Shown here one piece after another: positions 6,999 through 55,775 of a stretch of 64,000 bases of DNA (positions are counted from its first letter, which is position 1; every line of letters begins with the position of its first letter). Below the pieces are notes generated by a model that was given only the letters and a program-made list of their open reading frames with translations, ran no database searches and was not told the DNA's origin. The translations under genes were made by a program, and so were the position numbers. The DNA is from a virus. The stretch is taken from positions 1-64,000 of IMG/VR virus record IMGVR_UViG_3300035698_022389; one strand, given 5' to 3'.

Positions 6999-7002
6999 AT
7001 TA

Positions 7003-14586: not shown

Positions 14587-14691
14587 GAAGTAAACTTTTT
14601 CAATCTTTCATCTATATTTGAGGATACCTAAGTAGAGGGCATAGTGCGCCTCGTTTTAACTTGAGTATGGATGACCTTACAAGGAGGACAT
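14587..14691 (+). promoter_or_regulatory. Intergenic leader before the acidic repeat protein
   Basis: About 105 bases with no gene. Its only clear element is the strong ribosome site AAGGAGG at 14681-14687, which fixes the start of the next gene at 14692/14695 and not at the upstream ATG 14671. No convincing promoter or terminator was seen. Confidence 0.5.
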
Positions 14692-20486: not shown

Positions 20487-20496
20487 GGAGGTACTC

Positions 20497-21448: not shown

Positions 21449-21478
21449 TTGACACCTTTGAGATTGTTCTGTTATACA
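21449..21478 (+). promoter_or_regulatory. Candidate sigma70-type promoter for the homing endonuclease/methyltransferase gene
   Basis: TTGACA (21449-21454) with TATACA (21473-21478) at an 18-base spacing, directly after the capsid terminator and ~55 bases before the ATG. A private promoter would let this inserted gene be expressed separately from the capsid operon. Confidence 0.6.
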
Positions 21479-21532
21479 TGTGTTACGAGGTTTTGTTTTT
21501 TTGTGTTTACATGTGTTGTGAAAAGAGGGTGT

Positions 21533-33914: not shown

Positions 33915-34679
33915 ATGTTAAGTGTGCATGATAAACTGAGAAATGCTTTTCGTGTAGGGAAGTTAAAAACGAGATCAGTATCACCTGAAGGAAAAATGGA
34001 ATGGAAATGTGTAACAGATGTCCATAGGGCTGAGGTTCCTTGGGAAGAAATTCGGAGGGTAGATACTAAATATGGTCATGCTTATTTAACTAAAGGGCAT
34101 AGAGTTTTTGTATCTCCTGTAATAAAAAAGAATGCTGGGGATTTAGTAGAGAATGATAGTGTTCTTGGCATAGATGCTTCAGATACTGTTTTTTATCCTA
34201 GTTTAACATCTATAGCTGTTAAACCCTCTCGTAAATATATGTATGATTTAACTGTTGCTGACTGGCATAATTTTGTTTTGTTTGATTCACGGATGGTTAT
34301 CAGTAATTGCCCTGACAAATTTTATCATTTCAGGCCACCTGAGTACGAAGGGGATATCGGACAGTATAATCGAATATTTGGTCAGATATGGGAAGACGAG
34401 GAACTTTTGGAGTACCTGCTGAGGTCTTTGGATTGGTTCAACATGTTCCCCCCACTAACTCAGAAGATCAATACTTTGACCATTCTGCTTCAAGCCATGC
34501 CCGCATGGAGGACAGCCATCCTGTGGGGTGCTATTACTCATGCTTGTTTTGCTTTATCGATAAATTGGGTCGCGGACGAATTTTCTGTTCGTGGTGATCA
34601 GGAGGTAACTGTAGTAACTAAATCAGGTAAAGAGATTTCTTTATCGATTCAAGAATTGTATGAGATATGCAAGAACTAA
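33915..34679 (+). CDS. Split-intein gene, part 2: IntC1 - middle extein - IntN2
   Basis: Residues 1-131 are an intein C-fragment: block B YLTKGHRVF (TxxH), block F MYDLTVADWHNFVL, and ISN before Cys132 (34308). Residues 132-223 are a 92-residue middle extein (CPDKFYHFRPPEYEG...INWVADEF) with hydrophobic, membrane-like helices. At Ser224 (34584) a second intein N-fragment begins: SVRGDQEVTVVTKSGKEISL, then SIQELYEICKN and a stop, 31 residues. So this one polypeptide carries an intein half at each end and could only be matured by two trans-splicing events. Confidence 0.87.
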   Translation: MLSVHDKLRNAFRVGKLKTRSVSPEGKMEWKCVTDVHRAEVPWEEIRRVDTKYGHAYLTKGHRVFVSPVIKKNAGDLVENDSVLGIDASDTVFYPSLTSIAVKPSRKYMYDLTVADWHNFVLFDSRMVISNCPDKFYHFRPPEYEGDIGQYNRIFGQIWEDEELLEYLLRSLDWFNMFPPLTQKINTLTILLQAMPAWRTAILWGAITHACFALSINWVADEFSVRGDQEVTVVTKSGKEISLSIQELYEICKN

Positions 34680-34696
34680 TTAGTAAACGACAATTT

Positions 34697-34719
34697 ATGG
34701 TAGGCAAAAGGGACTTGAA
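34697..34719 (+). mobile_element. Solo left end of a TnpB-type (IS200/IS605-like) element
   Basis: The 19 bases TAGGCAAAAGGGACTTGAA (34701-34719) are identical to the left end of the TnpB-derived element at 47366-47384, and both follow TTAT-G. No right end or tnpB sequence is present here, so it looks like a scar left after loss of an element between parts 2 and 3 of the split gene. Confidence 0.7.
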
Positions 34720-34767
34720 AAAGACTCCAGATATTTGTGTAGCTAGGGTGCAGGAGGTATTATTACA

Positions 34768-35451
34768 ATGTTGAGAATAAAAGAACAATGTGAAATCAGA
34801 GAATCTTTTAAGGAGGGTACTTTACAGGTAAAAAGTGTTGACCCTGTTACAAAAGGTGTGGTATTACAGCCTATTATTGAGGTGTTAAAACATAAAACCC
34901 CTGATAAAGTTATGTTAGAAGTGGTTACCGATTGTGGGACGGTGGTTACAACACAAGATCATTCTTTGTTTAAATCTGATATGGTATCTGTTGAAGTTTC
35001 CAATTTAAAAGAAGATGATGAAATAGCCTGGGTGGATGGTATTTATAAACCCATGAAAGTCAGAAAGATCAATGTAGTCCCTAATGAAGTTTTTACTTAT
35101 GATTTAAGTGTCCCTCCTTTTCAGAATTTTACACTCTCTAATGGAGCTGTAGCACATAATTCATATAGCATAGGCGGGGTATCCTTGGATATTGAGAAAT
35201 CCTCAAAATACGAATCCTTGAAACAAAATGCTGAAGGTCAATTAGAGAAAGCAGCTGAAGCAAAACAACGAACTGTTAAATTTATCCGAGGGTTACAGCA
35301 GCCCAGATTCGGCCTCGGAGTAAGGAGCAGTTTTGGCCCACATGTAGGTAACGGCATACTTAGCCCTCGGAGTTTTATGGCTTGGGCTGTTGCTGTTTTA
35401 ACACCTGCATTAGTTTTTGTTAGTTCTGCCAACAGTCTAGGTTTGGTCTAG
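34768..35451 (+). CDS. Split-intein gene, part 3: IntC2 plus C-extein
   Basis: Residues 1-131 are an intein C-fragment: TTQDHSLF (TxxH block B), FTYDLSVPPFQNFTL (block F) and AVAHN before Ser132 (35161), the canonical HN-S junction. The remaining 96 residues are the C-extein (SYSIGGVSLDIEKSSKYESLKQNAEGQLEKAAEAKQRT...), with a coiled-coil-like stretch and a C-terminal hydrophobic helix. AGGAGG at 34752-34757 serves the ATG. Joined to parts 1 and 2 the product would be 322 residues. IntC1 and IntC2 have exactly the same length. Confidence 0.87.
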   Translation: MLRIKEQCEIRESFKEGTLQVKSVDPVTKGVVLQPIIEVLKHKTPDKVMLEVVTDCGTVVTTQDHSLFKSDMVSVEVSNLKEDDEIAWVDGIYKPMKVRKINVVPNEVFTYDLSVPPFQNFTLSNGAVAHNSYSIGGVSLDIEKSSKYESLKQNAEGQLEKAAEAKQRTVKFIRGLQQPRFGLGVRSSFGPHVGNGILSPRSFMAWAVAVLTPALVFVSSANSLGLV

Positions 35452-35968: not shown

Positions 35969-36451
35969 ATGAAAAAACAAACATCTTTTCAAAAATTCAG
36001 TCCTGAAGGATTAAAGCAGGCATTAATTAAATTAGCTTCTGATAATCCTGAACTAAGGAAGCATTTAGTACCCCTTCTGAAAGAAGCTGGGTATAAACGT
36101 AGACCTGAGTTTACAATGGAGATTTCAAGGGGGGGCGCTGAATTTGGGTTTTATTACCCCTACGTGAAAACCAACATGGAAGAACAAAAAGAGAAATGCT
36201 GGGAAGAATTTAAGGCTATTGTAAAAATCATTTTTAAGAAATATAAGGGTAGGAAACTATATTTTAATTCTAATTTATCTGATATAATAGTTTTACCAAA
36301 AGAGTTTATGTTACATAAAAACAAAAAACCTAGTATTAGTGTCCCTGATGTGTTTAAGCATAAGAGTTTAAACATTGAAAAAGAAGTAAAACAGATTGTT
36401 AATCGCTTTGGTTGGGTTTTAGATATTGGTTGGGTCGCATATTATCATTAA
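35969..36451 (+). CDS. Accessory protein with N-terminal RKHLVPLLK module (160 aa)
   Basis: Residues ~13-40 carry the island's shared module (LIKLASDNPELRKHLVPLLKEA). The rest is an alpha/beta domain of unknown family (FTMEISRGGAEFGFYYPYVKT...). The DNA of the module (36032-36089) is identical over 58 bases to that in the gene at 37465, pointing to recent recombination. The LKE-A sequence at the module end matches the T4-type prohead protease consensus (L/I-x-E); cleavage is speculative. Confidence 0.65.
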   Translation: MKKQTSFQKFSPEGLKQALIKLASDNPELRKHLVPLLKEAGYKRRPEFTMEISRGGAEFGFYYPYVKTNMEEQKEKCWEEFKAIVKIIFKKYKGRKLYFNSNLSDIIVLPKEFMLHKNKKPSISVPDVFKHKSLNIEKEVKQIVNRFGWVLDIGWVAYYH

Positions 36452-36499
36452 TCCAAGTCTGCAAATAAAGTTGGCCAAGGAAAGTATATGGTGTTTTAA

Positions 36500-37177
36500 A
36501 TGAAAAACTTTATCAGACATGCAACTTTGAGGGCATCCTCTAAAAAAGTTATTGATGCTTTTATCTTAAAGAAACCCCTTGAAAACCAATCTATGACTTC
36601 AACGGGGAAAGAACTCTCAAGTATTTCGATGGGTGGCCAACTACTTGCCAAATGGGTAGGCCGAAAAATAGCATTTGTAGGATTAGAGTCTTCTCGGACT
36701 GTATCCTCTATAGTTAGGTATCTTACGAAAAAGGCTGGTCACTCAATGGTGACTTTCGATTATGACCGAAAGGGTTTTAATCGGTCTATTCATTTTCAAA
36801 CGGGTGGGGATGTAAACGGTCCTCAGTATGATGGTTATGTTTATGCCAGGTTGCCTTGGCGGGATAACCAGTTTGTGGGCCAGTTAACTTGGACTGAGTA
36901 TCAGGATGAGTACAGTGTCCGAATGATTGAGGTTTTACCTGAATACCGAAGGACTGGTATTGGTAAAGCTCTGATGGAGTATTTTATGAAAGATCAAAAG
37001 ATTACTAAATCTGATATTAATACAGGGATGAGAACTCCTGATGGTTCTAAATTTTGGGATAAGTTATCCAAAGGGATGGAACACCCTGAGAATTTAAGAG
37101 CTAAAGTAATTAAGCTGGCTCACGAGAACCCTAAGTTACGAAAGCATTTAGTTCCTATTTTGAAAGAGGCTGAATAA
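36500..37177 (+). CDS. GNAT-type acetyltransferase with C-terminal RKHLVPLLK module (225 aa)
   Basis: Residues ~120-180 form a GNAT core: a beta strand SVRMIEVLPEYR followed by RRTGIGKALMEYF, the acetyl-CoA pyrophosphate-binding loop (R-x-x-G-x-G). The extreme C-terminus is the shared module VIKLAHENPKLRKHLVPILKEAE, here ending the protein instead of starting it. The substrate is unknown; it could modify a host protein or tRNA. The stop overlaps the next start (TAATG). Confidence 0.75.
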   Translation: MKNFIRHATLRASSKKVIDAFILKKPLENQSMTSTGKELSSISMGGQLLAKWVGRKIAFVGLESSRTVSSIVRYLTKKAGHSMVTFDYDRKGFNRSIHFQTGGDVNGPQYDGYVYARLPWRDNQFVGQLTWTEYQDEYSVRMIEVLPEYRRTGIGKALMEYFMKDQKITKSDINTGMRTPDGSKFWDKLSKGMEHPENLRAKVIKLAHENPKLRKHLVPILKEAE

Positions 37178-37437
37178 TGGGAACTGGTAATAATAACAAC
37201 GATATAACATTTTTTGATTCTGGCCCAAACAAAACGAAATACATGCTAGCTACAGTAAATTCTACTATAAATAGCGATAAAGATACAAACAAGTATCCAC
37301 CGACTGAAAGACTAATAACGACTGAAACTATTGAAGTATATATTGGGGTTGGTGATCGTGCAGAATTTGTTACACATATTTTTGATGCAAAGAAGGCTGA
37401 AAACCAAAGGTTAAATAGAAAACTGAGTTCTTATTAG
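37177..37437 (+). CDS. Small accessory protein (86 aa)
   Basis: A polar, Asn/Thr/Lys-rich short protein without the module or a named motif. It overlaps the acetyltransferase stop by one base and is followed directly by the next gene, so it belongs to the same operon. Its coding status is supported mainly by the tight packing. Confidence 0.5.
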   Translation: MGTGNNNNDITFFDSGPNKTKYMLATVNSTINSDKDTNKYPPTERLITTETIEVYIGVGDRAEFVTHIFDAKKAENQRLNRKLSSY

Positions 37438-37464
37438 GTGGAAAAGGGAAGGAAACCTTTCAAA

Positions 37465-38763
37465 ATGTCTAAAGATTTATCAAAGTTAGTAAAGAAGTTA
37501 GCTTCTGATAATCCTGAACTAAGGAAGCATTTAGTACCCCTTCTGAAAGAAGCTGTTGTACCTATTAAACAAATGGCAAAAAAGGCTTCAATTAAAACAG
37601 TGGAGCAGTTTGGATTATTTAAAGTTTATGGGCCTTATACAGATATAGCTCCTTTGATTAAGTCTTTGAAGCAGTGGGGTTTTAGATATGAGCCTGTTCA
37701 TAAAGTTTGGGAGATGCCTTTAGAAAAGGTAACCCCAGCTTTACGTAAAAGATTGGATAAATTAATTGCAAAACAAACTCCTTGGGAGGATATTTTGCAA
37801 CAGGCTGTAACAAACGGTTGGGTTTTAAGTTTTGTTTATAACGAGGAATTGATTCAAGATGCTCGCAAATTAAAAGGGACTTGGGATAAAAAACATAAAT
37901 ATTGGGTATTCCCGACAGCAAGGGCTTATAAGGAGATGTCTGATATTGTTAAAGATAAAGAAGACATTTTGAATGAGATACTAAAAAAGAAAGAGGGTTA
38001 TCTGCAACAAAAAAAGGAGGCCCTGCGTAAGGGTTGGTTTGTACAGTTTGATTATGATACAGATTTGATAAAAGAAGCCAAATCTTTAAATGGCTTATGG
38101 GACACTAATCAGAAGGTATGGGTATTTCTTGATATTTCTGATTATAAGAAAATGAAACGTGCCATACATGAGGATGATGATAAAGATGTCCCCTCAAATG
38201 CTATTGTACGCAGTCAATCTAGTAAGAACAAGACTCCTCGTTTTCAAAAAGGAGATTCCTTTAGAGACCCTGAAAATCATAAGGTTTTAACAGTTTTCAA
38301 CATAATGTCCAAATACTATGCTGAGGATGGAAGGTCCTTTGGTTTGGGTATGGATAGAGGTTGGGCACATTCGTTTTATTGTAAACTGGCCGGAAAAAAA
38401 GGGGTGGCTGAAGTAGAATTACAAGAATTTAAAGAATTGTCTCGGCAGCAAATGGTTAAGGCATACCAGAATATGGTTAAGATGTTTAAGAAAAAAGGGA
38501 AATTCCCCAAACCTGGCTCAAAATTGATAACTTTACGTGGGAAAAAACATATGGAATCCGATACCTCCTCTATTCTTTATGGTGGCGGGCATTGGTTTGT
38601 GGTTGAGAGTGGTAAAATATGGTATGTAGAGAACAACGGGGCAGATGGTGATAATTGGGCTCATAACAATATTGCCACATCTGGTGCGGGGGCATTAGGG
38701 TGGTATCTCCCTTATTCTGAGGGGTTAGCTGAGGAGCTTAAAATTATGGATAAGAAACTTTGA
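37465..38763 (+). CDS. Module protein with three HARP-like repeats (432 aa)
   Basis: N-terminal module KLASDNPELRKHLVPLLKEA (residues ~12-31). Then three repeats of a HARP-like pattern (hydrophobic-Y-x(n)-LI-x-LKxxG-x(n)-W): residues ~50-86 (IKSLKQWGFRYEPVHKVWEMP), ~118-150 (FVYNEELIQDARKLKGTWDK) and ~190-221 (FDYDTDLIKEAKSLNGLWDT). HARP-type domains occur in annealing helicases and nucleases and bind DNA. The C-terminal ~180 residues are a separate unknown domain. ATG 37465 is preferred; GTG 37438 is possible. Confidence 0.65.
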   Translation: MSKDLSKLVKKLASDNPELRKHLVPLLKEAVVPIKQMAKKASIKTVEQFGLFKVYGPYTDIAPLIKSLKQWGFRYEPVHKVWEMPLEKVTPALRKRLDKLIAKQTPWEDILQQAVTNGWVLSFVYNEELIQDARKLKGTWDKKHKYWVFPTARAYKEMSDIVKDKEDILNEILKKKEGYLQQKKEALRKGWFVQFDYDTDLIKEAKSLNGLWDTNQKVWVFLDISDYKKMKRAIHEDDDKDVPSNAIVRSQSSKNKTPRFQKGDSFRDPENHKVLTVFNIMSKYYAEDGRSFGLGMDRGWAHSFYCKLAGKKGVAEVELQEFKELSRQQMVKAYQNMVKMFKKKGKFPKPGSKLITLRGKKHMESDTSSILYGGGHWFVVESGKIWYVENNGADGDNWAHNNIATSGAGALGWYLPYSEGLAEELKIMDKKL

Positions 38764-39140
38764 TGTGGTGGGTTTATGTAATTCAATCTCAAGAAGTCCG
38801 GACAGGTAAAAAAGGAAATATTTTACCAGGGTTTCATTATGTAGGGTGTACTACTGATCCGGCTCGAAGGTTGCGTGAGCACAACGGTTTGTTGTCTGGG
38901 GGCGGGAAATATACCAGCAAGCACCGTCCTTGGGTGGCCCGAAGTCTTTATGGTCCTTATTTTGGCAGGTCTGAAGCAATGAAGGCTGAGTATGCTTTAA
39001 AGCATGGGAAACGCAGTACAGCTCGAACACGGTGGTCTGTAGAAGATTCCCCTTGGTGTCGAGGATTAGGTCCGAACGATCCGTGGGTGGTCAACGGTAT
39101 TTTTCCTATAGAACTCTGTAAGAAGGAGGAGTTTTTATAA
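38763..39140 (+). CDS. GIY-YIG nuclease domain protein (125 aa)
   Basis: MWWVYVIQS...GFHYVGCTTDPARRLREHN is the GIY-YIG pattern (with VYV...HYVG), followed by the conserved Arg in RRLREHN and a Glu in AMKAEYALKHGKR. These small single-domain enzymes resemble SLX1/UPF0213-type nucleases. The start overlaps the preceding stop (TGATG). It lacks the shared module. It could be a homing endonuclease that helps spread the island, or a repair/defence nuclease. Confidence 0.82.
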   Translation: MWWVYVIQSQEVRTGKKGNILPGFHYVGCTTDPARRLREHNGLLSGGGKYTSKHRPWVARSLYGPYFGRSEAMKAEYALKHGKRSTARTRWSVEDSPWCRGLGPNDPWVVNGIFPIELCKKEEFL

Positions 39141-39180
39141 GGTGTTGGCTGAAATAAAAAGAAAGCAAGGAGAAGTTAAA

Positions 39181-39705
39181 ATGAGTAATTTACGTTCAGA
39201 ATTAGTGAAGCTAGCCAGTGACAACCCTGGGTTTCGAAAACACCTGGTTCCTATTCTGAAAGGGGAGCCTAGAAGTATGAAAAGGGCAAATGTTATGAAA
39301 AAAGAAGCTGGTGGTATGGCTAGCGCCTTAGATTTAGTGTTTTTGATCATAAGTCAGGAATCCTCTTCCAAAGGTCAGAAGATGTTTATGGATACTAAGA
39401 AAGCTCTTGAGTCTGATGAGCAGTCCAAGAAATTGATGTCCGAGGTGTTAAGGGGGGTGGCAAGATCCTTAATACTTGACCAAAAGGAAAACACGGCTTT
39501 AAACTACATCCGTATGGCAATGAAGAATGTTAGATCCGCCGGATCTGCCAGGAATTCTATTTTCAAGGCTGCTCATGCTCTTGGTATCAAACTTCCAAGT
39601 TCTATATTTGCATCTAATGACTCTGAATTACAGGAACAATTACAGAAGCTGGCCAATGAGAACCCAGAAGGTATCAGGAAGCATTTGGTTCCTCTTTTAA
39701 GATAA
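39181..39705 (+). CDS. Accessory protein with modules at both ends (174 aa)
   Basis: Residues ~4-27 (LVKLASDNPGFRKHLVPILK) and the last ~25 residues (QKLANENPEGIRKHLVPLL) are two copies of the shared module, flanking a helical middle (DLVFLIISQESSSKGQKMFMDTKKALE...). ATG 39181 is chosen because AAGGAG lies 8 bases upstream. The upstream stretch 39142-39201 is nearly identical to 40144-40203 inside the next gene, which reveals recombination. Function unknown. Confidence 0.65.
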   Translation: MSNLRSELVKLASDNPGFRKHLVPILKGEPRSMKRANVMKKEAGGMASALDLVFLIISQESSSKGQKMFMDTKKALESDEQSKKLMSEVLRGVARSLILDQKENTALNYIRMAMKNVRSAGSARNSIFKAAHALGIKLPSSIFASNDSELQEQLQKLANENPEGIRKHLVPLLR

Positions 39706-39792
39706 CTTGGACTTTGATTTAGGTGGTTAGAAGATTACTTAAGTGAAATTGAGTTGGAAATTATAATACTTTCTATGTGAAAGGGTGGTGGA

Positions 39793-40581
39793 ATGAGTGA
39801 TACAAAATATTTACAGTTATTTCCAGTAATAGATAAAGCAGTAAAGAAATATTTATCTAAGTCCAAATATATAAAACGAATTAGGCTCAAAGGCAAAGAT
39901 AAACATTCTATTCTATATAGTGTGGATTGGGCATTTGAACCTCATAAAGATGCTCCAATCCCAGAATACTTTGCGGTAACTAGCACAGGGAGAACTCTTT
40001 ATTTGGAGTTGAGTGTCCCAGGGTTCTTTAGTTATTCATCACCAACTGAAATGTCTATGGATTTAGAGATTGCTCTTATCAACCCTGTTAAGGTTGAACA
40101 GAAGATTAAAGAGATTGCAAGAGCTATTGACCCTATAGCTTCCAAGGTGTTGACCGAAATAAAAAGAAAGCAAGGAGAAGTTAAAACGAGTAATTTACGT
40201 TCAAAGTTAGTGAAGTTATCCAATGAGAATCCTGATGGTATCAGGAAACATTTGGTTCCATTGCTGAAACAGGCTTTGGCTGGTCCAGATAAGAGTGGTC
40301 GGAATTGGAAAGAAATCAATGATTCCAAAGGTCATCGGTGGATGTGGTCTGGTAAACCTGGTCCTGTATTTGGGGTTTACGAATTTGAAGGCCCAGGAAT
40401 CCCTCTATACCGTCTTCAGACAATTTTAGACGATGGGGGTATGCTGAAATGGAAACGTCAGGTGAAAGACCCGAAAATGGCTTTTGCTCAAGCAGCCTCC
40501 GTTTGGAAAATGTTCCATGCTGATGGGACTATGGGCGGCAATCTTTTAATGGGTTGGAAAAGGATGGCTTCTAATAGATGA
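39793..40581 (+). CDS. Fused accessory protein with internal RKHLVPLLK module (262 aa)
   Basis: Residues 1-~116 are an alpha/beta domain (YLQLFPVIDKAVKKYLSKSK...). At ~118-160 comes VLTEIKRKQGEVKTSNLRS plus the module LVKLSNENPDGIRKHLVPLLK. Then follows a C-terminal domain (GHRWMWSGKPGPVFGVYEFEGPG). The middle DNA contains the AAGGAG site and start region of a former separate gene, with the ATG changed to ACG, so this is a gene fusion (compare 39142-39201). Function unknown. Confidence 0.65.
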   Translation: MSDTKYLQLFPVIDKAVKKYLSKSKYIKRIRLKGKDKHSILYSVDWAFEPHKDAPIPEYFAVTSTGRTLYLELSVPGFFSYSSPTEMSMDLEIALINPVKVEQKIKEIARAIDPIASKVLTEIKRKQGEVKTSNLRSKLVKLSNENPDGIRKHLVPLLKQALAGPDKSGRNWKEINDSKGHRWMWSGKPGPVFGVYEFEGPGIPLYRLQTILDDGGMLKWKRQVKDPKMAFAQAASVWKMFHADGTMGGNLLMGWKRMASNR

Positions 40582-40622
40582 ACGCTATTTAGAATTATTT
40601 CTAGTTATTTAAGGAAAATACA

Positions 40623-41519
40623 ATGAGTAATGGAATTAAAGACCTCAAAATATTGTTGGATATTAATGCTACATATCCTAAATTTGGTTCCCCTGAGTAT
40701 GAGCAGATGGTTACAAAGGCTGTTCTGCTCAAGAAGCCCTTGTTAGTAGCTTATACAAAGTTTGTTCAAAAAGAGGCATCTAAAGACAGGTCTGCCGATC
40801 CTGCAATGGTGTTCTTAGGTTCTATGGCTATGAATATTAATAGGGATTTTACAAAGCTGATTACCTCCACATCCAAGAACTATCCTGATTGGATATCTTT
40901 GTACAATGGTTTGGTTCCTAGAGGTAGAAAAATAGGTGGTAAAGCATATAAGTCAGCTTTTGCTAAAGGATTTGATGCAGCACATGGTCGAGGGACATTT
41001 GTTAGGGCTGAATTAAACAACAAGAAACAGAGGGCTTCTAGTAATTTACGTTCAAAATTAAGCCGTGATGAGAAAATACCAAGATATACAGAGTTATTAT
41101 CAGCCAGGATTTCCAAATTGGCTTCGGACTATCCTGAGTTACGAAAGCATTTGGTCCCTTTATTGAAACAGGGTTCCATTTTCAAATATGAGTCTTCTAC
41201 ACCTATAGACAAAAGGGTTCTGGTTAGAAACCTTAATAAAGTCCTTGGGAATGTTTCTAGAGGATTCTTCAATGATGAGCATTGGAGAGGGCCTAAGAGA
41301 GTATGGGATGCTTTGAATAAGATAGGTATAACTTGGGAGCAGACAAAGAACTTCTATGATGGGAAAATGCCCCCACAATCAAAGACTTGGAAGTTTGAAG
41401 TTGAGTTCACCTCTAAAAAAGGTAGGGCAGCTAAATTATATGGTCACATGGTAGCATCTGGTGCTGGTTCTGTAAATGACCCCTTGAGCCGTTATGATAT
41501 TGTCGTTTACGTAGGATAA
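40623..41519 (+). CDS. Accessory protein with internal RKHLVPLLK module (298 aa)
   Basis: The N-terminal ~135 residues are helical (GIKDLKILLDINATYPKFGSPEY...). A relic SSNLRSKLS sequence, like the start of other module genes, precedes the module ARISKLASDYPELRKHLVPLLKQG (~160-183). The C-terminal domain contains PIDKRVLVRNLNKVLG, which has a degenerate copy at 42070-42110. Likely another fusion of two former genes. Function unknown. Confidence 0.65.
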   Translation: MSNGIKDLKILLDINATYPKFGSPEYEQMVTKAVLLKKPLLVAYTKFVQKEASKDRSADPAMVFLGSMAMNINRDFTKLITSTSKNYPDWISLYNGLVPRGRKIGGKAYKSAFAKGFDAAHGRGTFVRAELNNKKQRASSNLRSKLSRDEKIPRYTELLSARISKLASDYPELRKHLVPLLKQGSIFKYESSTPIDKRVLVRNLNKVLGNVSRGFFNDEHWRGPKRVWDALNKIGITWEQTKNFYDGKMPPQSKTWKFEVEFTSKKGRAAKLYGHMVASGAGSVNDPLSRYDIVVYVG

Positions 41520-41538
41520 AATTTAAGGATAAATTAAG

Positions 41539-41991
41539 ATGAGTACTTTACGAGATAAAGTAATAAAACTTGCCCACAAGAATCCTGAACTTAGGAAACA
41601 CCTGGTTCCGTTACTAAAGAGTGCTGGTGGTGGGATATATCAAATTTTCTTTAATATATTTAAGGAAGCCTTTAAAGAATCTTGTACTAAACTATACACT
41701 CAATTTTACCGTGATTATCGTTGGGAGGATATAGAAGGAGTGTCTTCAAGTATCCAACCAGGACTTTGGCAAGTTGTTTCTAAATATAGTCCTATGGTTG
41801 CAGTTTCTTATCATGTGACTGGTACGAAACTGACTATTACTTGTAGTCTTTTAAATCTTCATCATTCTCTATCTAAAATGGAAAAGGTTATTCCTTTGGG
41901 GGAATTTCTAGCCCGTGATATGACTGAAAAAGACATGCAAATCCTTATTATGAAATTCATTATTAGTTGTGCTAAGAGGGTTTGGAGATAA
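41539..41991 (+). CDS. Accessory protein with N-terminal RKHLVPLLK module (150 aa)
   Basis: The module is at residues ~3-28 (LRDKVIKLAHKNPELRKHLVPLLK). The rest is a mixed alpha/beta domain (FNIFKEAFKESCTKLYTQFYRDYRWED...) of unknown family. An AAGGA site precedes the ATG. Its end overlaps the start of a decayed module-gene remnant in another frame. Confidence 0.62.
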   Translation: MSTLRDKVIKLAHKNPELRKHLVPLLKSAGGGIYQIFFNIFKEAFKESCTKLYTQFYRDYRWEDIEGVSSSIQPGLWQVVSKYSPMVAVSYHVTGTKLTITCSLLNLHHSLSKMEKVIPLGEFLARDMTEKDMQILIMKFIISCAKRVWR

Positions 41992-42139
41992 GAATCCTAA
42001 ACTCCGACCTCATCTGGTTCCATTATTGAAAATAGCAGCTATTTTCAATAATGATTTCTCTGAGCTAATCGATAAAAGGATTCTGGTCAGGAAACTTAAT
42101 AAGGAGAATCTTATTATACAGGATGTAAGTTATAAATGA
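41987..42139 (+). pseudogene. Remnant of a module gene
   Basis: Reading from 41987 gives DKNPKLRPHLVPLLKIAA, then ELIDKRILVRKLNKENL, and a TGA at 42137. The first part is the shared module and the second matches PIDKRVLVRNLNKVLG of the gene at 40623. There is no start codon or ribosome site, so it is a truncated duplicate. Confidence 0.75.
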
Positions 42140-42175
42140 CCACTAAAATGGGATTAACCTCAAGGAGAAATTACG

Positions 42176-42706
42176 ATGAGTGATTTACGTTTAAATTTAG
42201 TGAAGTTAGCCAATGATAACCCTGATGGTATCAGGAAGCATTTGGTTCCTCTATTAAAACAGGCTAAAACCTATGACTTTGAGGAAGGGGACCCCATAGG
42301 AACTAATGAGAAAATGTGGGCTGAATATAAACCTAGTCTTAAACTTCAAGTACAGAAGTTGGAGCAGCTCGGTCTGAGATACATTAAAGTGCAACGTCAT
42401 GGTATGTTGGCTTTGTCATTCAAATATAAGAAATGGACAATTGAGATATCAATCCTTCGGTTATTTGAGTTGAGAAACGTAAAAGGTCTGGGTGCTTTTG
42501 CCAGTCGTTTCGGTAAATTAGAACAGTTAATCGAAGACGAGATCCAAAATATCAAGCTGGCTGGTGGCCCACGTCAATATTCCCCGTTCTTCTCAACCTA
42601 TTATAGTAAGGTGAAAGCCATCATGGGAGGGGCAAAGACCAAAGGTTTGGCTATATCTTTTGTTACAGAAGTTATCAAAGAGATGGGTGTTCGGATTTGG
42701 ACATAA
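42176..42706 (+). CDS. Accessory protein with N-terminal RKHLVPLLK module (176 aa)
   Basis: Module LVKLANDNPDGIRKHLVPLLKQA at residues ~6-29, then an alpha/beta domain (MWAEYKPSLKLQVQKLEQLGLRYIKVQ...). AAGGAG precedes the ATG. It is the last gene of the accessory island; the intergenic region behind it contains a hairpin. Function unknown. Confidence 0.65.
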   Translation: MSDLRLNLVKLANDNPDGIRKHLVPLLKQAKTYDFEEGDPIGTNEKMWAEYKPSLKLQVQKLEQLGLRYIKVQRHGMLALSFKYKKWTIEISILRLFELRNVKGLGAFASRFGKLEQLIEDEIQNIKLAGGPRQYSPFFSTYYSKVKAIMGGAKTKGLAISFVTEVIKEMGVRIWT

Positions 42707-45704: not shown

Positions 45705-46332
45705 AGCTCAGATTATTTGCACTTGCCCATCCATATGGATACAAGATTTGAACTTAAATATGAAACGTGGCCAGTCGGCAATGGTTTCAGAATCTAAAGC
45801 TAAGGCTTCAACGGATTTGGGTTTAGCACGTAGGAATGGTGGCGTTAGTATTACGTATGTACAACGATTTCAGGAACTTAAACCCCCTCAAGTAGAACCT
45901 GTGGTTCAGGTATCGAAGAAAGTACCCTTACCAACTCCTTTGCATCAACCTGAGTCTCCTGTCCTTCCTGCTGAAAGAGTCAGGGTGGAGAGAATGACCT
46001 TGGACGAGGATGCTTTGGTGGATAAACTGGCAGCCAAAATGAATTCATTACGAAGCAGTAACACCAATTCTTTAATAGATTCTTTGATAGGTGAAGTTCA
46101 GGCCATGAGGAAAGAGTTCTCAGAGGGTCAAAAGAACCATGGTCAGATTGTGAAAGAGGTTGTTCATTCTGAGGGTAGGGTAAAAGAAGATGTCCCTATG
46201 TTTATCCCTAAGACTATTATGGGGAAAAAAGCAGGGGATGTTAAGATAGAGATTGAAGAAACTACTTCAGAAAGCACTGTGGATGAGGCTTCGGAAGCTT
46301 TACGTGCTTTACGGAAAAAGGAGAAATCATGA
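45697..46332 (+). CDS. Structural-region protein with disordered and coiled-coil segments (211 aa)
   Basis: ATG 45697 overlaps the previous gene and follows CGAGG. The middle is proline-rich (QVEPVVQVSKKVPLPTPLHQPESPVLP), followed by a helical region (VDKLAAKMNSLRSSNTNSLIDSLIGEVQAMRKEF) and an acidic/lysine C-terminus. It overlaps the actin-like ATPase start by four bases, so it is coupled to it and may be a partner. No family recognised. Confidence 0.55.
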   Translation: MIEAQIICTCPSIWIQDLNLNMKRGQSAMVSESKAKASTDLGLARRNGGVSITYVQRFQELKPPQVEPVVQVSKKVPLPTPLHQPESPVLPAERVRVERMTLDEDALVDKLAAKMNSLRSSNTNSLIDSLIGEVQAMRKEFSEGQKNHGQIVKEVVHSEGRVKEDVPMFIPKTIMGKKAGDVKIEIEETTSESTVDEASEALRALRKKEKS

Positions 46333-47348
46333 CAGATGAAAAAACACCTGTGATTCCAGTACCTTTTGGCGTGGGGTGTGATATTGGGACTATGAATATT
46401 GTGTCTGCCCGTCGTGGAAAAGAAGGGATTACGACCAAACGTATGCGTGATGTCTTCATCGATTTGCCTATAACTGCCAAGAAGATGTTGAAATTGTCTT
46501 CTACCAGCTTTGTTGAACGAGAAGACGATGTTTTGATTCTTGGGGATGCTGCTTTGGAGACGGCTAATGTTTTTGGAACCCCTCCTCGACGCCCACTTTC
46601 GGATGGAATAATCTCGGCTAGTGAAATAGACAGCTTGGAAGTCCTTGGTATGCTTATCAAGAATGTGCTGGGTAAACCCAGGACTCCGAACGAGGCTTGT
46701 TATTTCTCTGTACCAGCAGAACCGATAGATAGGCCTGACAAGGACATAATTTACCATCGTGGAGTATTTGAACGAATTGTTGCTGAGTGTGGATATACTC
46801 CATATGCAGCCAATGAAGCTATGGGTATTGTGTATTCTGAAACAGCTAATGAAGGATTTTCTGGTGTAGGAATCTCTTTTGGTAGCGGCATGACGAACGT
46901 TGCCCTATCCATCAACACCATTGAAGGTCTGACGTTTTCCATTGCCCGTGGCGGCGACTGGATTGATGCAGGTGCTGCTAGTTCTGTCGGCCAGACTCAG
47001 GCACGTATATGTGCATTGAAAGAGAAGGGTTTTGATTTGATGAAGCCTGAAGGTCGGGAACAAGAAGCTCTGGCCTTCTATTATAAGTCGGCCATTGACT
47101 ATGCTCTGGATAACATTGAAGAACGTTTCAAGGCCATTCAAAATCAATTTGTTTTGGCTAATCCTGTCCCCCTCGTAGTGTCAGGTGGTACGAGTTTAGC
47201 AGGTGGGTTCATGGAGTTTTTCAAGTCTGTCTTTGAGAAACGGAAGAAGTTCCCTATCGAGATTTCCGAGATTCGACATGCTCAGGAACCCCTGAATGCC
47301 GTTGCTTACGGTTTGTTGATTCAAGCTATCCAAGAACACGAGGATTAG
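46329..47348 (+). CDS. Actin-like ATPase (ParM/MreB/Hsp70 fold, 339 aa)
   Basis: Three nucleotide-binding motifs of the actin superfamily are in order: phosphate-1 FGVGCDIGTMNIV (residues ~13-25), phosphate-2 GVGISFGSGMTNVALS (~178-193) and the adenosine motif PLVVSGGTSLAGG (~279-291). Length is close to bacterial actins (320-350). Such proteins form filaments that segregate DNA or position phage replication sites; others are ATPase chaperones. Its place between neck and tail genes is unusual. Confidence 0.85.
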   Translation: MTDEKTPVIPVPFGVGCDIGTMNIVSARRGKEGITTKRMRDVFIDLPITAKKMLKLSSTSFVEREDDVLILGDAALETANVFGTPPRRPLSDGIISASEIDSLEVLGMLIKNVLGKPRTPNEACYFSVPAEPIDRPDKDIIYHRGVFERIVAECGYTPYAANEAMGIVYSETANEGFSGVGISFGSGMTNVALSINTIEGLTFSIARGGDWIDAGAASSVGQTQARICALKEKGFDLMKPEGREQEALAFYYKSAIDYALDNIEERFKAIQNQFVLANPVPLVVSGGTSLAGGFMEFFKSVFEKRKKFPIEISEIRHAQEPLNAVAYGLLIQAIQEHED

Positions 47349-47364
47349 AAAGGAGTTTATTATG

Positions 47365-47843
47365 ATAGGCAAAAGGGACTTGAATAAACATTAAATAATT
47401 TAACATAGTTATGAAAATAAACAAAGCACATAAAATTAGACTTTATCCAAATAACAAACAGGAAACTTATTTCAAAAAAACTTCTGGAATCTCAAGATTC
47501 GTTTATAATTGGGGACTCTCTGAATGGAAATCCCAATATGAATCAGGTTTAAAACCCTCCTCCTATAAATTAGTTAAACAATTTAACTCCATAAAACATC
47601 AACAATTTCCTTGGGTTTATGAATGTTCGGAGTGTGGGTTAAAGATGGATTGTGATTTAAATGCATCAATTAATTTAAAACAACTCGCTGAAAGTCATTC
47701 AGAGAGGATAAATGCTTGTGGAGATGAAAGCTCTGGTCACTGCGTTGCCCCAAGGGCAAGCAAGGACGAAACTATTATCTATGAAGCAAGAAAAGGGCAG
47801 TTGTTAACCCGTTTGGTTAACAGTTCAAGTCCCTTTTGACTAG
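47365..47843 (+). mobile_element. Non-autonomous TnpB-type (IS200/IS605-like) element
   Basis: Bounded by a perfect 15-bp inverted repeat, CAAAAGGGACTTGAA (47370-47384) and TTCAAGTCCCTTTTG (47824-47838). It contains a tnpB gene with a large internal deletion. The region between the end of tnpB and the right end has two stable hairpins: TTGCCC-CAA-GGGCAA (47745-47759) and GTTAACC-CGTTT-GGTTAAC (47803-47821). They lie where the omega (guide) RNA of TnpB is usually encoded. No transposase TnpA is present. Confidence 0.82.
47411..47839 (+). pseudogene. tnpB: Internally deleted tnpB (142 codons left)
   Basis: The first ~74 residues match the TnpB N-terminus (HKIRLYPNNKQETYFKKTSGISRFVYNWGLSEW). 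They then jump at QFPWVYE directly to the C-terminal zinc/RuvC end ECSECGLKMDCDLNASINLKQLAE. Full TnpB is about 400 residues, so the catalytic RuvC core is gone. The join falls in GGGTTTATGAA, a sequence also present upstream of the same zinc motif in the second copy (57640 region), so the deletion probably occurred between short direct repeats. Confidence 0.88.
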
Positions 47844-50444: not shown

Positions 50445-53400
50445 ATGGCCTTTCCAGGAAAAAACTACAGCCCGCCAGGAGTTTATACTCGAACACTTTT
50501 CGAGAATCCCGTTTCTGGAGCTATTGACAGTTTCAAAATCCCGATTTTCATCGGTGAGGGGAACGAATTTTTAACCCAGAATAATCTGGAGGTCGTTCGG
50601 GGATCATCCCAGAAAGTTGACCAAAAGATTGTAGGTGAAGATGAGGCAGGACGTGCTGTGGTCAGCACTACCCAAGCAGGTGTCATCACATTGGGAGATT
50701 TTAACGGAGTCTTGGACACGATTCAAGTCCGTAAATACCCCATTGTAGATGGGCAAGGCTCGGGTGTAACTACGAACAGCCGGGCGGATGTGGTAGTTAC
50801 CATCAATAACCAGATTATGGTTGTTCGACAGGTGACTGGGGCTACAGGAGTCGTCAAGTTGGCTCAACCCCCACAAGTTACAGATGAAATCCGTGTTACT
50901 TACTTTTTCAAACGCACGGATACTCTGACTACTGATGATGTCAGTGCCCAAGTCAACCCGAATCCTGCAGTTGTCAGGGGTGTTGATGGTATTGCCGACA
51001 TAGACTCCCCAGTCGGTCAAGAAGGTTCGGTTGGTTCCAGCATAGTCATTGATTTGCATGGGGACATCACGAATGCCTCCGGTCAGGTTGTTGTTCCAGC
51101 TAACAATGTTCTCAATCTAGTGATTGATGGTGTGGCATATGTTATCACCATTGCTCCTCGGAATGATTACACAATGGCTCAAATTGCTGCATCTATTACG
51201 GCAGCTAACAAGGGAACTCTGACTGCTGGTGCTTTCACTAATAATTTTGGTCTTTCGGTACTTTTATTAAATGCTAGTGGTAGCATCGTAGTGAAAGCAG
51301 GCTCAGCTAATGCTCCTTTGGGGCTCATAACTGGTTCTGCAGACACTCGAACTACAACTTTCTATACCTACGAAGGTCCTATCGTTGATGGTTCTAACGG
51401 TGGTGTTGCAACAACAGACCCCGCAAAAGTAGTGGTTAAAGTCAATAACAGTCAGGTCATTCCAGTATCAGTGAATGGAACCACACGGACAGTTACTTTG
51501 TTAGCAGCTCCTAAAGCTGGTTCAACTGTGACCATCCAATACTGGTTTAATGCCTGGCAGGATACCTTTGATTACTTGCTACATAATGGCATCACTGAAA
51601 TTACTCAGTGTGGTGTTGCTCCGGATTCTAAATCTTACATCCAGGATGCTGATTTTGTCCTGAAAGATGATAAGATTGTCTGGGGTACGGCAGCATTGAT
51701 AGCCAGTGGTGTTCATACTACAGGTGCTGTTTTGTTTGGGGAAACCCAAATTACTAGCACCTTGGTAGACAACAAGACATTCCTTTCAGTTTGTACCTCA
51801 GTCGTACAGAGCAGTGGTGGTATCTCCTCTGATAACCGTATGGATTTCACACTTCCTTTCCAACCAACTCTGGGTAATGGACGAAACACCCCCTTGGGTC
51901 AGAGTTTGTTCCAGACGGTTTCCAATGGACGTATTGATCTTCCAACCAACCGCCCTGATGTGGTGGATGTATATTGGGGTTACGATGTTCAGGATGCTCT
52001 CGAAAGAGGTGGGGTGGCTGTAGATAAAGTGGAAGGTATCACTGTTACGTTGGCTGAGGCTGTTCCAGTCGGGGCCACCGTGTTTGCATCCTTCTGGTAC
52101 AATCTCCTGACAGACACTGAATTCACCTTGTCTTGTGTGAACCCCGGAGCTTCAGGCATCGGTACATATACCGTTGAAGATAAAGGTGACAACACTGTCT
52201 ACAGTGCTACATATAACACCAGTACAAAGGGTTCCTCTCTTAATGGTGTGACTCTGGAATTCCCATCAGGTTCTGAATTGACACCCGATCTTCACTTTGA
52301 AGGTTTGTCTGGTGATGATTTTGTTGGGCCTGTTGAAGAAATCGTGACAGTACAGTTTGCTTCTCGTGTAGCAACTCCAGCAAAATGGACGCTGCCTGGG
52401 AACGGACCTTATGAGTTCATTAAAGAGTACTCTGATAGACTCAGGGTTAAACTGCACACTTACGAATCCGTTAGTGCCGCGGGTCTGAATCTTGATAATC
52501 CTTCTGGTAGTGCATCCGTTCCTGGACATGGTGGTGGGTTCTTTGCTTCCATCGTCGGTGATGAAGTGGATTACACAGGTGGAACCAGTGCAACTATTGG
52601 TCAAAGTTATTCTTTGGCAGCTGCTGAAGATTTCTACCTTCAAGTAGATGATGCCAATATTCTGGTGAAAACATCCAGTACAGTAACCAACGTAGATGTT
52701 AGCTACTTTGCAGATGTCATCAACGAAGCTGCCAGCGGTCATCAAGACATAGCCGTAGCAGGTGGTGTTAGCACTATTGAATTGCCGCACACCAAATCCG
52801 ACGTGAATAATTATTACGTTGGCTGGAGAGTGGTTATCGGTAATCATGCTCTTGGTGGAGCAACTCAGGGTCAGTACAAAACTATCACAGCTTATGATGG
52901 AACTGCTTGGATAGCAACTCTGGATTCTGCTTGGGCTGGTGGGGCTGTTGCAGTAGGAACTCCTTACTTCATTTATAACCCTGATGCCCGTTCTACAATG
53001 GTCGGTGCAACAGAGTTTAATGGCCCCGTAACAATCACAGCCTCTGCCCATGACAAACTTAAAGTGGGTTATATTGGTGATGTTGTCGGTACAGAAGGTT
53101 TCGAGATTACATTGGGTGCCGCAGCTTATGCTACCCCAGCTCTCTTGGCTGCCCATATCCAAAGTAGAATTGACACAGCTATTATAGCCCGTGTTTTGAT
53201 CACACCAAATCTGGCTGGTTTCAATATTGAATGTACGGCTAATGCTCAAGCTAAGTTGCAGTTTAAATTGCAGCTTCCAGGGTTAGACAATGCTGGTTAC
53301 ATCCAGTTCCTCGATGCTACCAATGCTCCTGTTGAAGATTTTGCAGTGGTTGCAGGCTTAGATACAGGGGCAGCAATTGGTGACGGTCAGGCAGCTCTCC

Positions 53401-55775
53401 TTCAGGCTCCTATTGCAAGGTCTTACCTTTGCCCATCGGGTACGGGTGACCGCAAACTGTATGACAGACTTATTATTCGTAACCGTCTGTTGCCTGGTGG
53501 TGGTCCTGATAGCAGTATGGATGCTCATGACATCGAATCACAGACTCAGCTTCAAGTTCTGACGGGTAACACCAAAGCAGGACTGGCTTCAGGTTTGTAT
53601 GGAACAGCCAGTCGTTCGGCAACAGTCCGATCTTCTACCGTGAGCGGGCAGGTTGGTTTTATCGGTGGTATGGATGCTGACAGTGAACCCGAGGTCATAT
53701 TCTATGATGGTACTGGGACTGTGGCAGTAAATAATATCTTCAAGTTTGATGTGGATGGAACTCCTGTAGAAGTTATCTTCGATGCTACTGCTACTGGGAC
53801 AGCTACCAATCTTGGTCCAATTTCAGATGATGATTCTGTTTTGGGTCAAATTAAAGTGGCAATGGCAGATGTACCAGGTGCCCCGTTTGGCAACGCAGCC
53901 AACATCGTGAGTACTTTTATCCTACGTCAAGAAGGTGCCGGCTTCCGTATCACAGGTGTTGAAACAAGCTCCCTGTCCAAAGTGTCCGTCAGTAATGGTT
54001 CGGCCAACGGTGTATTGGGTGCTTCTTCAGGGACAGTGGCACTTCGAGAAACTGTATCGGTTAGAAAATTGGCTTCTGCTTTAATGGCAAATCGGCACAG
54101 CAATTTTACCACTTGGATGCTGACTCTTTCTGCTGCTGACCTTTCCTTTTCCCGAGACGGCTTGGCTAATGTTGAAGAAGACAGTGTTGGTGGTCAATTC
54201 CTTTATGTGCAGGATGCTCCGATACTCGTATCCGAATTGGGAACCCAATCTTCGGTCGAAATCAAGAACACCTTGAGCCAAATTGATGATGCTTTAGCAT
54301 ACAACACAGGTCTGAATGCTAAAGATAGTGATGGTGCTTCTGGTGAACCTGCTTTGGACGGATTTTTCGTAAAATCCAGTGTGTCTGATGGTTCAGGTAC
54401 AATCAATGAATCCCAACTTAATCCTTCTGGTGACGGTACGGGTCAAGATGGAATCGTTGGTCAAACTTATCGGGATGAAATTACAGGCTTGGTTTTCACC
54501 CTTCTACCTCGTGGTTGGAGTACAAATCCAAATGGTCCGTGGCTTCAGTACCCAACAGGTGCTAACTCTACATTCCGTATTCAGATCAGCGGAACTTTCT
54601 TGACGGATGCCAATATCCCTCATAATGCTTTCAATGGTGTGGAACTGACTGTAGCTAACACTGTTGATGTTGGTGTCAGTGACACTGCCTTGGTTGAAAC
54701 CTTCAAACGTGGGGGTAATGAACCATCTATCGGTGACTTGTACTATACATCGTACATTTACCAGAAACAGGACTTCACAACGACGTTCTACACTAAGATG
54801 AGTTCCATCGAACAAGCTTATGGGAATATTGGTGTAGATGCTCCGTTAACAATGGCATCAGATTTAGCTGTGTTGAATGGTGCTGTCCTATTGGGTCTAA
54901 AACAAGTCCCTCGGGAATCAGGTGAGCCTTATGCTAGCCTGACAACGTACAGGGACGCCATTCAGGAGCTGGAAGGTACTTTGCCTGGGTTCGTTAACCC
55001 TGACATTATTACTCCACTTCGTGGTGATTCTACGGACTTGTATCAGTATCTGAAACAATCTAATGAACTGATGTCCTCTATTCGGTATAAGTCTGAAAGG
55101 ACTTCTATCATAGGTATGGCCGCAGGTTCCTTGCCTGAAGCATGTGGTAACTTGGCACAAGCCCTTGAAAATACTCGTATGCGACTGGTTTACCCTGATG
55201 TTGCAGTGGTTTCTATCACGGATGCCTTGGGGAACAGCACAGATGAGTTAATGGATGGTCCCATGTTAGCAGCAATGCTGGTAGGTTCTGTTGTCAGTCC
55301 AAATCTTGATGTGGCAACACCATGGACAGGCCGACGATTGGTTGGTGTCCAACAGCTCGGACGTATCCTTGATGCAGTAGAGCAGAATCTGCTGGCCACG
55401 AAAGGTGTTACCGTGTTGGAAGACAAACCTCCGTTTATTCGTGTACGTCATGGTTTGACAACTGACATGACTAATGTCTTGACCAAGCTGCCGACTATTG
55501 TGTTGATTGCAGATGAAGTCCAACGTCAGTCACGACAGCTTTTGGAGAACTTCATAGGTATCAAATTCTTGCCTGGTATCCTGTCACAGATTGAAGGTCG
55601 GATGGCAATGTTGATGAAGCAACTGGTAGCTGCTCAAATCATCACGGCTTACACAGGCATTAAAGCATCTACACAGGCAGATGATCCTACATCTGCCGAA
55701 ATTGCTGCTTACTATGCACCGGTTTTTCCATTATTATATCTGCTCTTGACCTTTCACCTCCGTTCCAGCTTATAG
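50445..55775 (+). CDS. Giant contractile tail sheath protein (1,776 aa)
   Basis: The N-terminus (FPGKNYSPPGVYTRT) and the C-terminal ~150 residues are typical of phage tail sheaths: GVTVLEDKPPFIRVRHGLTTD, ITAYTGIKASTQADDPTSAE and VFPLLYLLLTFHL. The usual length is 450-700 residues. Here the extra ~1,100 residues are multiple beta-rich insert domains (repeated patterns such as TVTIQYWFNAWQ, EIRVTYFFKR, TVFASFWYN), likely decorating the outside of the tail. The C-terminal polymerisation/contraction core appears intact. It makes the phage a myovirus. Confidence 0.88.
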   Translation: MAFPGKNYSPPGVYTRTLFENPVSGAIDSFKIPIFIGEGNEFLTQNNLEVVRGSSQKVDQKIVGEDEAGRAVVSTTQAGVITLGDFNGVLDTIQVRKYPIVDGQGSGVTTNSRADVVVTINNQIMVVRQVTGATGVVKLAQPPQVTDEIRVTYFFKRTDTLTTDDVSAQVNPNPAVVRGVDGIADIDSPVGQEGSVGSSIVIDLHGDITNASGQVVVPANNVLNLVIDGVAYVITIAPRNDYTMAQIAASITAANKGTLTAGAFTNNFGLSVLLLNASGSIVVKAGSANAPLGLITGSADTRTTTFYTYEGPIVDGSNGGVATTDPAKVVVKVNNSQVIPVSVNGTTRTVTLLAAPKAGSTVTIQYWFNAWQDTFDYLLHNGITEITQCGVAPDSKSYIQDADFVLKDDKIVWGTAALIASGVHTTGAVLFGETQITSTLVDNKTFLSVCTSVVQSSGGISSDNRMDFTLPFQPTLGNGRNTPLGQSLFQTVSNGRIDLPTNRPDVVDVYWGYDVQDALERGGVAVDKVEGITVTLAEAVPVGATVFASFWYNLLTDTEFTLSCVNPGASGIGTYTVEDKGDNTVYSATYNTSTKGSSLNGVTLEFPSGSELTPDLHFEGLSGDDFVGPVEEIVTVQFASRVATPAKWTLPGNGPYEFIKEYSDRLRVKLHTYESVSAAGLNLDNPSGSASVPGHGGGFFASIVGDEVDYTGGTSATIGQSYSLAAAEDFYLQVDDANILVKTSSTVTNVDVSYFADVINEAASGHQDIAVAGGVSTIELPHTKSDVNNYYVGWRVVIGNHALGGATQGQYKTITAYDGTAWIATLDSAWAGGAVAVGTPYFIYNPDARSTMVGATEFNGPVTITASAHDKLKVGYIGDVVGTEGFEITLGAAAYATPALLAAHIQSRIDTAIIARVLITPNLAGFNIECTANAQAKLQFKLQLPGLDNAGYIQFLDATNAPVEDFAVVAGLDTGAAIGDGQAALLQAPIARSYLCPSGTGDRKLYDRLIIRNRLLPGGGPDSSMDAHDIESQTQLQVLTGNTKAGLASGLYGTASRSATVRSSTVSGQVGFIGGMDADSEPEVIFYDGTGTVAVNNIFKFDVDGTPVEVIFDATATGTATNLGPISDDDSVLGQIKVAMADVPGAPFGNAANIVSTFILRQEGAGFRITGVETSSLSKVSVSNGSANGVLGASSGTVALRETVSVRKLASALMANRHSNFTTWMLTLSAADLSFSRDGLANVEEDSVGGQFLYVQDAPILVSELGTQSSVEIKNTLSQIDDALAYNTGLNAKDSDGASGEPALDGFFVKSSVSDGSGTINESQLNPSGDGTGQDGIVGQTYRDEITGLVFTLLPRGWSTNPNGPWLQYPTGANSTFRIQISGTFLTDANIPHNAFNGVELTVANTVDVGVSDTALVETFKRGGNEPSIGDLYYTSYIYQKQDFTTTFYTKMSSIEQAYGNIGVDAPLTMASDLAVLNGAVLLGLKQVPRESGEPYASLTTYRDAIQELEGTLPGFVNPDIITPLRGDSTDLYQYLKQSNELMSSIRYKSERTSIIGMAAGSLPEACGNLAQALENTRMRLVYPDVAVVSITDALGNSTDELMDGPMLAAMLVGSVVSPNLDVATPWTGRRLVGVQQLGRILDAVEQNLLATKGVTVLEDKPPFIRVRHGLTTDMTNVLTKLPTIVLIADEVQRQSRQLLENFIGIKFLPGILSQIEGRMAMLMKQLVAAQIITAYTGIKASTQADDPTSAEIAAYYAPVFPLLYLLLTFHLRSSL

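Follow-up and report, generated by a model that had tools for sequence, protein, structure and literature searches.

The window analysed here comprises 64,000 nucleotides of an uncultured virus (positions 1 to 64,000 of the 132,879-base IMG/VR record IMGVR_UViG_3300035698_022389). Located at positions 35969–42706 is an island of genes whose products share a short peptide module, called the tag below, joined to otherwise unrelated segments, called cargo. A preliminary description of this DNA had counted ten copies of the module, at the N-terminal end, the C-terminal end, both ends or the middle of proteins. A six-frame search recovered all ten as one family, spread over nine open reading frames (ORFs) on the plus strand between 36011 and 42265, and mapping placed them as described. 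Five are N-terminal (ORFs 35969, 37438, 39142, 41539, and 42176), two C-terminal (ORFs 36500 and 39142), and two interior (ORFs 39793 and 40623), and one, in ORF 41969, is decayed and has lost its first helix. The same search found no module in the rest of the record. Against six-frame ORFs, the copy profile matched each copy at 1e-12 to 1e-17, and it gave zero matches to reversed proteins, which excludes chance as the source of the copies. Two ORFs in the island, 37177–37437 and 38760–39140, lack the module. The copies are listed below, with arrows marking predicted cuts.

36011–36088, plus strand: tag copy 1, N-terminal, ORF 35969–36451; LKQALIKLASDNPELRKHLVPLLKEA, site KEA↓G
37094–37171, plus strand: tag copy 2, C-terminal, ORF 36500–37177, GNAT acetyltransferase; LRAKVIKLAHENPKLRKHLVPILKEA
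37477–37554, plus strand: tag copy 3, N-terminal, ORF 37438–38763, DUF5710-like repeats; LSKLVKKLASDNPELRKHLVPLLKEA, site KEA↓V
39190–39261, plus strand: tag copy 4, N-terminal, ORF 39142–39705; LRSELVKLASDNPGFRKHLVPILK, sites KRA and KEA↓G 7–14 residues further
39628–39702, plus strand: tag copy 5, C-terminal end of ORF 39142–39705; LQEQLQKLANENPEGIRKHLVPLLR-stop
40195–40275, plus strand: tag copy 6, interior, ORF 39793–40581; LRSKLVKLSNENPDGIRKHLVPLLKQA
41097–41174, plus strand: tag copy 7, interior, ORF 40623–41519; LSARISKLASDYPELRKHLVPLLKQG, KQG in place of KxA
41548–41625, plus strand: tag copy 8, N-terminal, ORF 41539–41991; LRDKVIKLAHKNPELRKHLVPLLKSA, site KSA↓G
41978–42037, plus strand: tag copy 9, decayed, ORF 41969–42139; KNPKLRPHLVPLLKIA plus a cargo remnant of ORF 40623
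42185–42265, plus strand: tag copy 10, N-terminal, ORF 42176–42706; LRLNLVKLANDNPDGIRKHLVPLLKQA, site KQA↓K

The tag is portable, and its copying from gene to gene is visible in the nucleotides. Copies 1 and 3, on unrelated cargo, are identical over their second halves (45 nt). In ORF 39793, the interior copy has 84% nucleotide identity over 126 nt to the leader and tag of ORF 39142, whose true start is likely the ATG at 39181, behind AAGGAGAAG. Because this interior copy still has the leader and Shine-Dalgarno sequence of copy 4, with the former ATG start now ACG, ORF 39793 is explained as two formerly separate genes that have fused. Copy 7 is preceded by a truncated tag start (SNLRSKL), and copy 9 is a duplicated piece of ORF 40623 that has since decayed (72% nucleotide identity between the two ORFs over 92 nt). 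The cargo and tag of ORF 42176 recur together at another locus (L015). As to the cargo proposed earlier for the island, the GNAT acetyltransferase of ORF 36500–37177 agrees with Pfam (3.7e-07), and the label "HARP-like" for the repeat protein of ORF 37438–38763 has to be dropped, as this protein gave only a weak match to DUF5710 (0.0017) and one to phrog_24323 (5.4e-07). The untagged ORF 38760–39140 encodes a GIY-YIG endonuclease (Pfam, 3.8e-10) and is possibly a homing element that helps the island genes to move.

The tag unit has two parts, a helix-NP-helix hairpin of consensus LRSKLIRLAHxNPELRPHLLPLL and a tripeptide, [KR]-x-A, on the side of the cargo. The hairpin is 24–26 residues in length, not counting the tripeptide, and also occurs at C-terminal and interior positions. 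An AlphaFold2 model of a 45-residue segment of the window (copy 8, ORF 41539; 70 alignment rows, some others having been excluded) has a helix at residues 4–14, a break at N-P, and a helix at residues 16–28, with pLDDT about 80 and pTM 0.47. The hairpin is read as two short amphipathic helices meeting at N-P. A single-sequence AlphaFold2 model of ORF 39142 was discarded (pLDDT 48.8). A sequence search of the PDB for a known domain or fold gave nothing better than E 1.1, and we found no published account of the hairpin peptide in the literature searched.

A database search, as the preliminary description had recommended, revealed a family far larger than ten, from uncultured huge phages. The window module matched a 485-kb uncultured phage, LR745208.1, in ten places (12 by profile), and no other phage record gave a convincing match. 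Two scans of IMG/VR yielded 49 and 68 loci, partly overlapping, and an iterated profile search of the fetched ORFs gave 198 copies (194 distinct sequences) in 179 distinct ORFs. One query of these scans (A4) consisted of composed consensus variants and served solely to broaden the scan, the counted copies being from real loci; a broad alignment (A3) was too variable to serve in the contig scan. Each of 16 whole large records has 5–15 tag copies at E < 0.01. Among 84,980 bacterial and archaeal GTDB genomes, the tag occurs in only two short contigs of metagenome-assembled genomes, one of them phage-like by virtue of a rIIA-like gene (judged by eye). A cellular origin of the tag was therefore rejected in favor of a phage origin.

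The tagged phages are all uncultured, and their records are mostly fragments. Among 37 carrier records, the full-length capsid genes, where present, are 72–89% identical to the major capsid protein (MCP) of the window; one further carrier has a capsid fragment with 100% identity. The carrier proteases are 49–64% identical in the best-matching stretch. Two related isolates, Tunturiibacter phage Tunturi_5 and Bacillus phage G, with capsid identities of 50% and 38%, respectively, have no copy of the module. Because the carriers have a single capsid lineage and these isolates are untagged, the tag marks one clade of huge phages.

As the preliminary description had proposed, the cargo is variable. 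The 217 cargo segments fall into 147 groups, 112 of which are single. Six groups include cargo segments from both sides of the tag. For example, a helical cargo ending RNNVFKAAxxLGxKLPSxMF has the tag at its N-terminal end in locus L102, at its C-terminal end in L024, and at both ends in ORF 39142 of the window. The division between N-terminal and interior copies leans on the nearest Met, which lies within 12 residues in 144 of 188 cases, because many ORF starts are uncertain. The domains assigned among 169 tagged ORFs are unrelated to one another and include RNA ligase, pentapeptide repeats, ART-PolyVal, 2H phosphoesterase (2H-SAK), DUF2958, DUF5710, DUF7007, RelA/SpoT, ParB-like nuclease (ParBc_2), LPD1, and others; no terminase, capsid or head, tail, or replication family is among them. 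The majority of the remaining ORFs have no domain assignment. Carriers are mostly shorter than 400 amino acids and have one tag, and a few long ORFs have several (e.g., 868 and 1243 amino acids). Two more motifs, YLKEHPxADxSKHTV and KFxNPETGNxVxFxSLPxxEQ, recur in tagged proteins (L026, L033, L039, L046, L047, and L107), and the proteins of this clade look built from several reusable short modules.

The tripeptide accompanies most copies of the hairpin. Among the 165 copies that are not C-terminal, 141 (85%) have [KR]xA within 10 residues after the hairpin, as compared to 8% of random windows in the same proteins; for the narrower [KR][TEQSV]A, the figures are 71% and 2%. The tripeptide follows the hairpin directly in 97 of the 141 and is displaced by 1–7 residues in 44, as in LLTKTA, LLASSEKTA, and LLVGTGSKVA. 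At C-terminal tags the order is reversed: 11 of 20 have [KRH]xA just ahead of the hairpin (3.1 expected; reached in none of 2000 resamplings), as in EELAKTA↓SLRSRV...LLTR-stop, and six have it behind. Because C-terminal tags mirror N-terminal ones, the site belongs to the junction with the cargo and not to the helix, as a predicted cleavage site should. The residue before the Ala varies across the family (E 36%, T 17%, Q 15%), leaving [KR]-x-A as the constant part. The residues following the Ala are A and G, then R and S, and resemble those at the sites of the scaffold protein described below.

The island lies within the part of the record that contains virion genes, among them a terminase-like gene (30–1673) and a portal gene (2260–5532). 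The genes for the inner head and capsid are as follows.

16407–18023, plus strand: head maturation (prohead) protease; phrog_18299, 5.8e-14; 41.5% to the annotated Tunturi_5 protease
18023–19552, plus strand: acidic scaffold-like protein with many KKA and KSA sites; N-terminal HQA↓SAPPA
14671–15735, plus strand: core protein; helical N-terminal domain with KRA↓G at its end; KKA↓S in its acidic tail
20446–21369, plus strand: major capsid protein, start uncertain (homologues point to an internal Met); phrog_2522, 1.4e-50

The scaffold gene stands between those for the protease and the capsid protein, and it is here that the tripeptide of the tags reappears. We compared motif counts with those expected from composition in the capsid regions of 22 phages (20 carriers, LR745208, and the window). 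In the scaffold homologues, [KR]xA[SAG] occurs 197 times versus 48 expected (4.1-fold), with sites at matching positions, RxA↓SAPPA N-terminally and [KR]xA near the C-terminus in 22 of 22 genomes. The core protein has 96 versus about 25 expected (3.8-fold), its sites being kept in most homologues, and the protease is 2.4-fold enriched. A conserved IRTA↓G is located near the N-terminus of the window protease, where 19 of 22 homologues have [VI]RxA[SAG]. In the MCP and the decoration protein, [KR]xA is depleted. Control tripeptides were mostly near or below expectation, the main exception being A-x-[KR] in the scaffold (1.5-fold). Neither LxE (scaffold 0.99, core 0.76, protease 0.97) nor [SAG]xE (scaffold 0.93, core 1.11) was enriched. 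In LR745208, one tagged gene is located between the scaffold and capsid genes. Another LR745208 protein (L140, 402081–401419), of unassigned function, contains the core protein's N-terminal domain with EKTA↓S behind it; the core domain has apparently been reused there as a second kind of tag.

The module is most likely a packaging tag for ejected proteins that the prohead protease would remove at [KR]-x-Ala. We favor packaging into the head over other readings because the cargo is of the "polyvalent" conflict type and because the tripeptide matches the motif of the scaffold. The hairpin would dock inside the growing head, on its inner core or scaffold, such that cargo fused at either end of the tag is drawn in and enclosed by the prohead. 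The protease would then cut between hairpin and cargo, after the Ala of [KR]-x-Ala (next residue A, G, or S), alongside its destruction of the scaffold. The freed cargo would remain in the head and thus be present in the virion, leave with the DNA, and act on the host, by analogy with the internal proteins and Alt of phage T4; it is the type of cargo that suggests ejection.

Several observations weigh against this interpretation. Of the non-C-terminal copies, 24 of 165 have no [KR]xA, several having KEG or KQG, and both C-terminal copies in the window are exceptions to the mirrored order, with no site ahead of the hairpin. The z-scores of the motif are optimistic because the scaffold tails are repetitive and of low complexity. 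Around residue 24, the MCP has a conserved KLA↓A, which may or may not be cut. Lastly, of 133 tagged genes, 47 lie no more than 25 kb from the capsid gene versus 36.6 expected, which is only slightly nearer than chance.

This scatter of tagged genes over the genomes, rather than grouping with head genes, would also be expected if the hairpin sent proteins elsewhere, to a replication compartment or a host partner, with [KR]xA being just a helix end and linker. The 97 copies in which KxA lies directly at the helix end could then be read as having a helix cap. We consider this address unlikely, as the site shifts by 1–7 residues in 44 copies, changes sides of the hairpin in C-terminal tags, and is enriched in the scaffold, core, and protease and not in the decoration protein or MCP.

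The preliminary description had likened the module to the capsid-targeting sequences of T4, cleaved after (L/I)-x-E. Its proposal of a shared tag is borne out by the family. Three window copies do read LKE-A, as it stated, and 34 of 165 family copies (21%) have LxE↓A; the rule itself is not supported, since 79% of copies differ and LxE is not enriched in the scaffold, core, and protease, so that we give cleavage of this kind very little chance. Equally hard to credit is the counter-possibility that the same description had raised, that the module is a normal repeat or domain of one folded family and the ORFs are diverged paralogues. The tandem copies in a single island and the flanking pieces common to some ORFs fit such a family; the many cargo groups, the unrelated known domains, and the tag at opposite ends of the same cargo do not. 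A secretion signal for cleavage by the host's signal peptidase I, brought to mind by the basic start, the hydrophobic LLPLL, and the Ala before the proposed cut, is the most improbable, as the hydrophobic stretch is of about six residues and includes Pro and position -3 is Lys or Arg and not small (both judged from general knowledge of signal peptides), and as the tag is also found C-terminally and in mid-protein.

The packaging tag proposed here has counterparts in known systems. The propeptides of T4 (IPI-III and Alt, with gp21 as protease) are N-terminal, 10–19 residues long, and cut after L/I-x-E (PMC9026906). As here, a short terminal peptide is attached to unrelated cargo, and the protease motif also fills the scaffold (PMC9026906); loading into the prohead core, removal by the protease, and ejection of the cargo against the host would be further likenesses. 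The clade thus shares with T4 a protease motif common to tag and scaffold, but the motif is unlike that of T4. Furthermore, the tag is not a 10–19-residue N-terminal propeptide but a 24–26-residue hairpin at either end, with a [KR]-x-A site, no evident sequence likeness, and, by the motif test, no (L/I)-x-E.

The huge phages SPN3US and phiKZ likewise have many ejected head proteins with propeptides removed by a protease, with cleavage motifs AxE and S/A/G-x-E, as described in the portions of two sources drawn on here (PMC10052503, PMC13282480). Those portions describe no common modular hairpin tag, and the motif test gave no sign of S/A/G-x-E in the present clade ([SAG]xE 0.93–1.1). The polyvalent proteins encoded by phages and conjugative elements, for which packaging and injection have been predicted (Iyer et al. 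2017, PMC5512222), overlap in cargo with the tagged proteins (ART-PolyVal, LPD1, and others), which are likewise conflict effectors by type. However, polyvalent proteins are large and multidomain, and no common address tag is described for them, whereas the tagged carriers are mostly small separate proteins with one tag and do not combine many domains in a polypeptide.

Tunturi_5 and phage G share with the tagged clade a related capsid protein and protease, and KxA-rich proteins as well (the scaffold gp332 in Tunturi_5, the protease gp19 in phage G), but no hairpin was found in them. Among 227 Tunturi_5 ORFs ranked by [KR]xA relative to their own composition, gp328, annotated as the DNA ejection protein, and gp332, the scaffold, came out on top. 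Four Tunturi_5 proteins have a short N-terminal MxxSxLLx[KR]xA, namely an ADP-ribosyltransferase (gp205, starting MSRSKLLTRRA↓S), a NUDIX protein (gp273), a minor head protein (gp272), and gp220; as this pattern was noticed after the fact, it serves as a lead only. The presence of the [KR]xA pattern in untagged Tunturi_5 suggests that the protease motif predates the hairpin, with tags of another kind in use among relatives.

With somewhat less assurance than for packaging itself, we regard it as probable that one portable, end-independent hairpin tag with a [KR]-x-Ala prohead-protease site forms a general loading code for the ejected proteins of this huge-phage clade, and that it spreads from gene to gene as a DNA cassette of ribosome-binding site, start codon, and tag. 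Unrelated host-takeover proteins could therefore be added quickly to the injected set. Ordinarily, only virion proteomics, done on phages in culture, tells which proteins huge phages inject. Should the tag be a loading code, those of an entire uncultured clade could be read from its genes, about 180 proteins here, mostly of no assigned function and likely rich in counter-defense activities. The residue preceding the cut in the prohead-protease motif would be Ala, not Glu, and a tag functional at either terminus could serve to load large capsids with foreign proteins.

Several other genes of the window were noted. A tail-sheath-like ORF (50445–55775), judged by its N-terminus, resembles annotated Tunturi_5 gp326. 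Inteins or homing elements occur at three places: the portal gene contains an intein with LAGLIDADG, pieces of intein are located at 33915–35451, and a DNA methylase with a fused LAGLIDADG region lies at 21449–24100. A 2531-amino acid ORF (6991–14586) has a head of tRNA-nucleotidyltransferase type joined to a core of eukaryotic-type topoisomerase IB, among other regions. The ORF at 47411–47839 reads, by eye, as a truncated TnpB/OrfB transposon protein with a zinc-finger end. Finally, 46329–47348 encodes a volactin-family actin (PF25216, E 1.3e-72), a kind known best from haloarchaea. Such an actin occurs in 12 of the 16 large tag-bearing records and is absent from Tunturi_5 and phage G; it is a conserved phage actin of the tagged clade.

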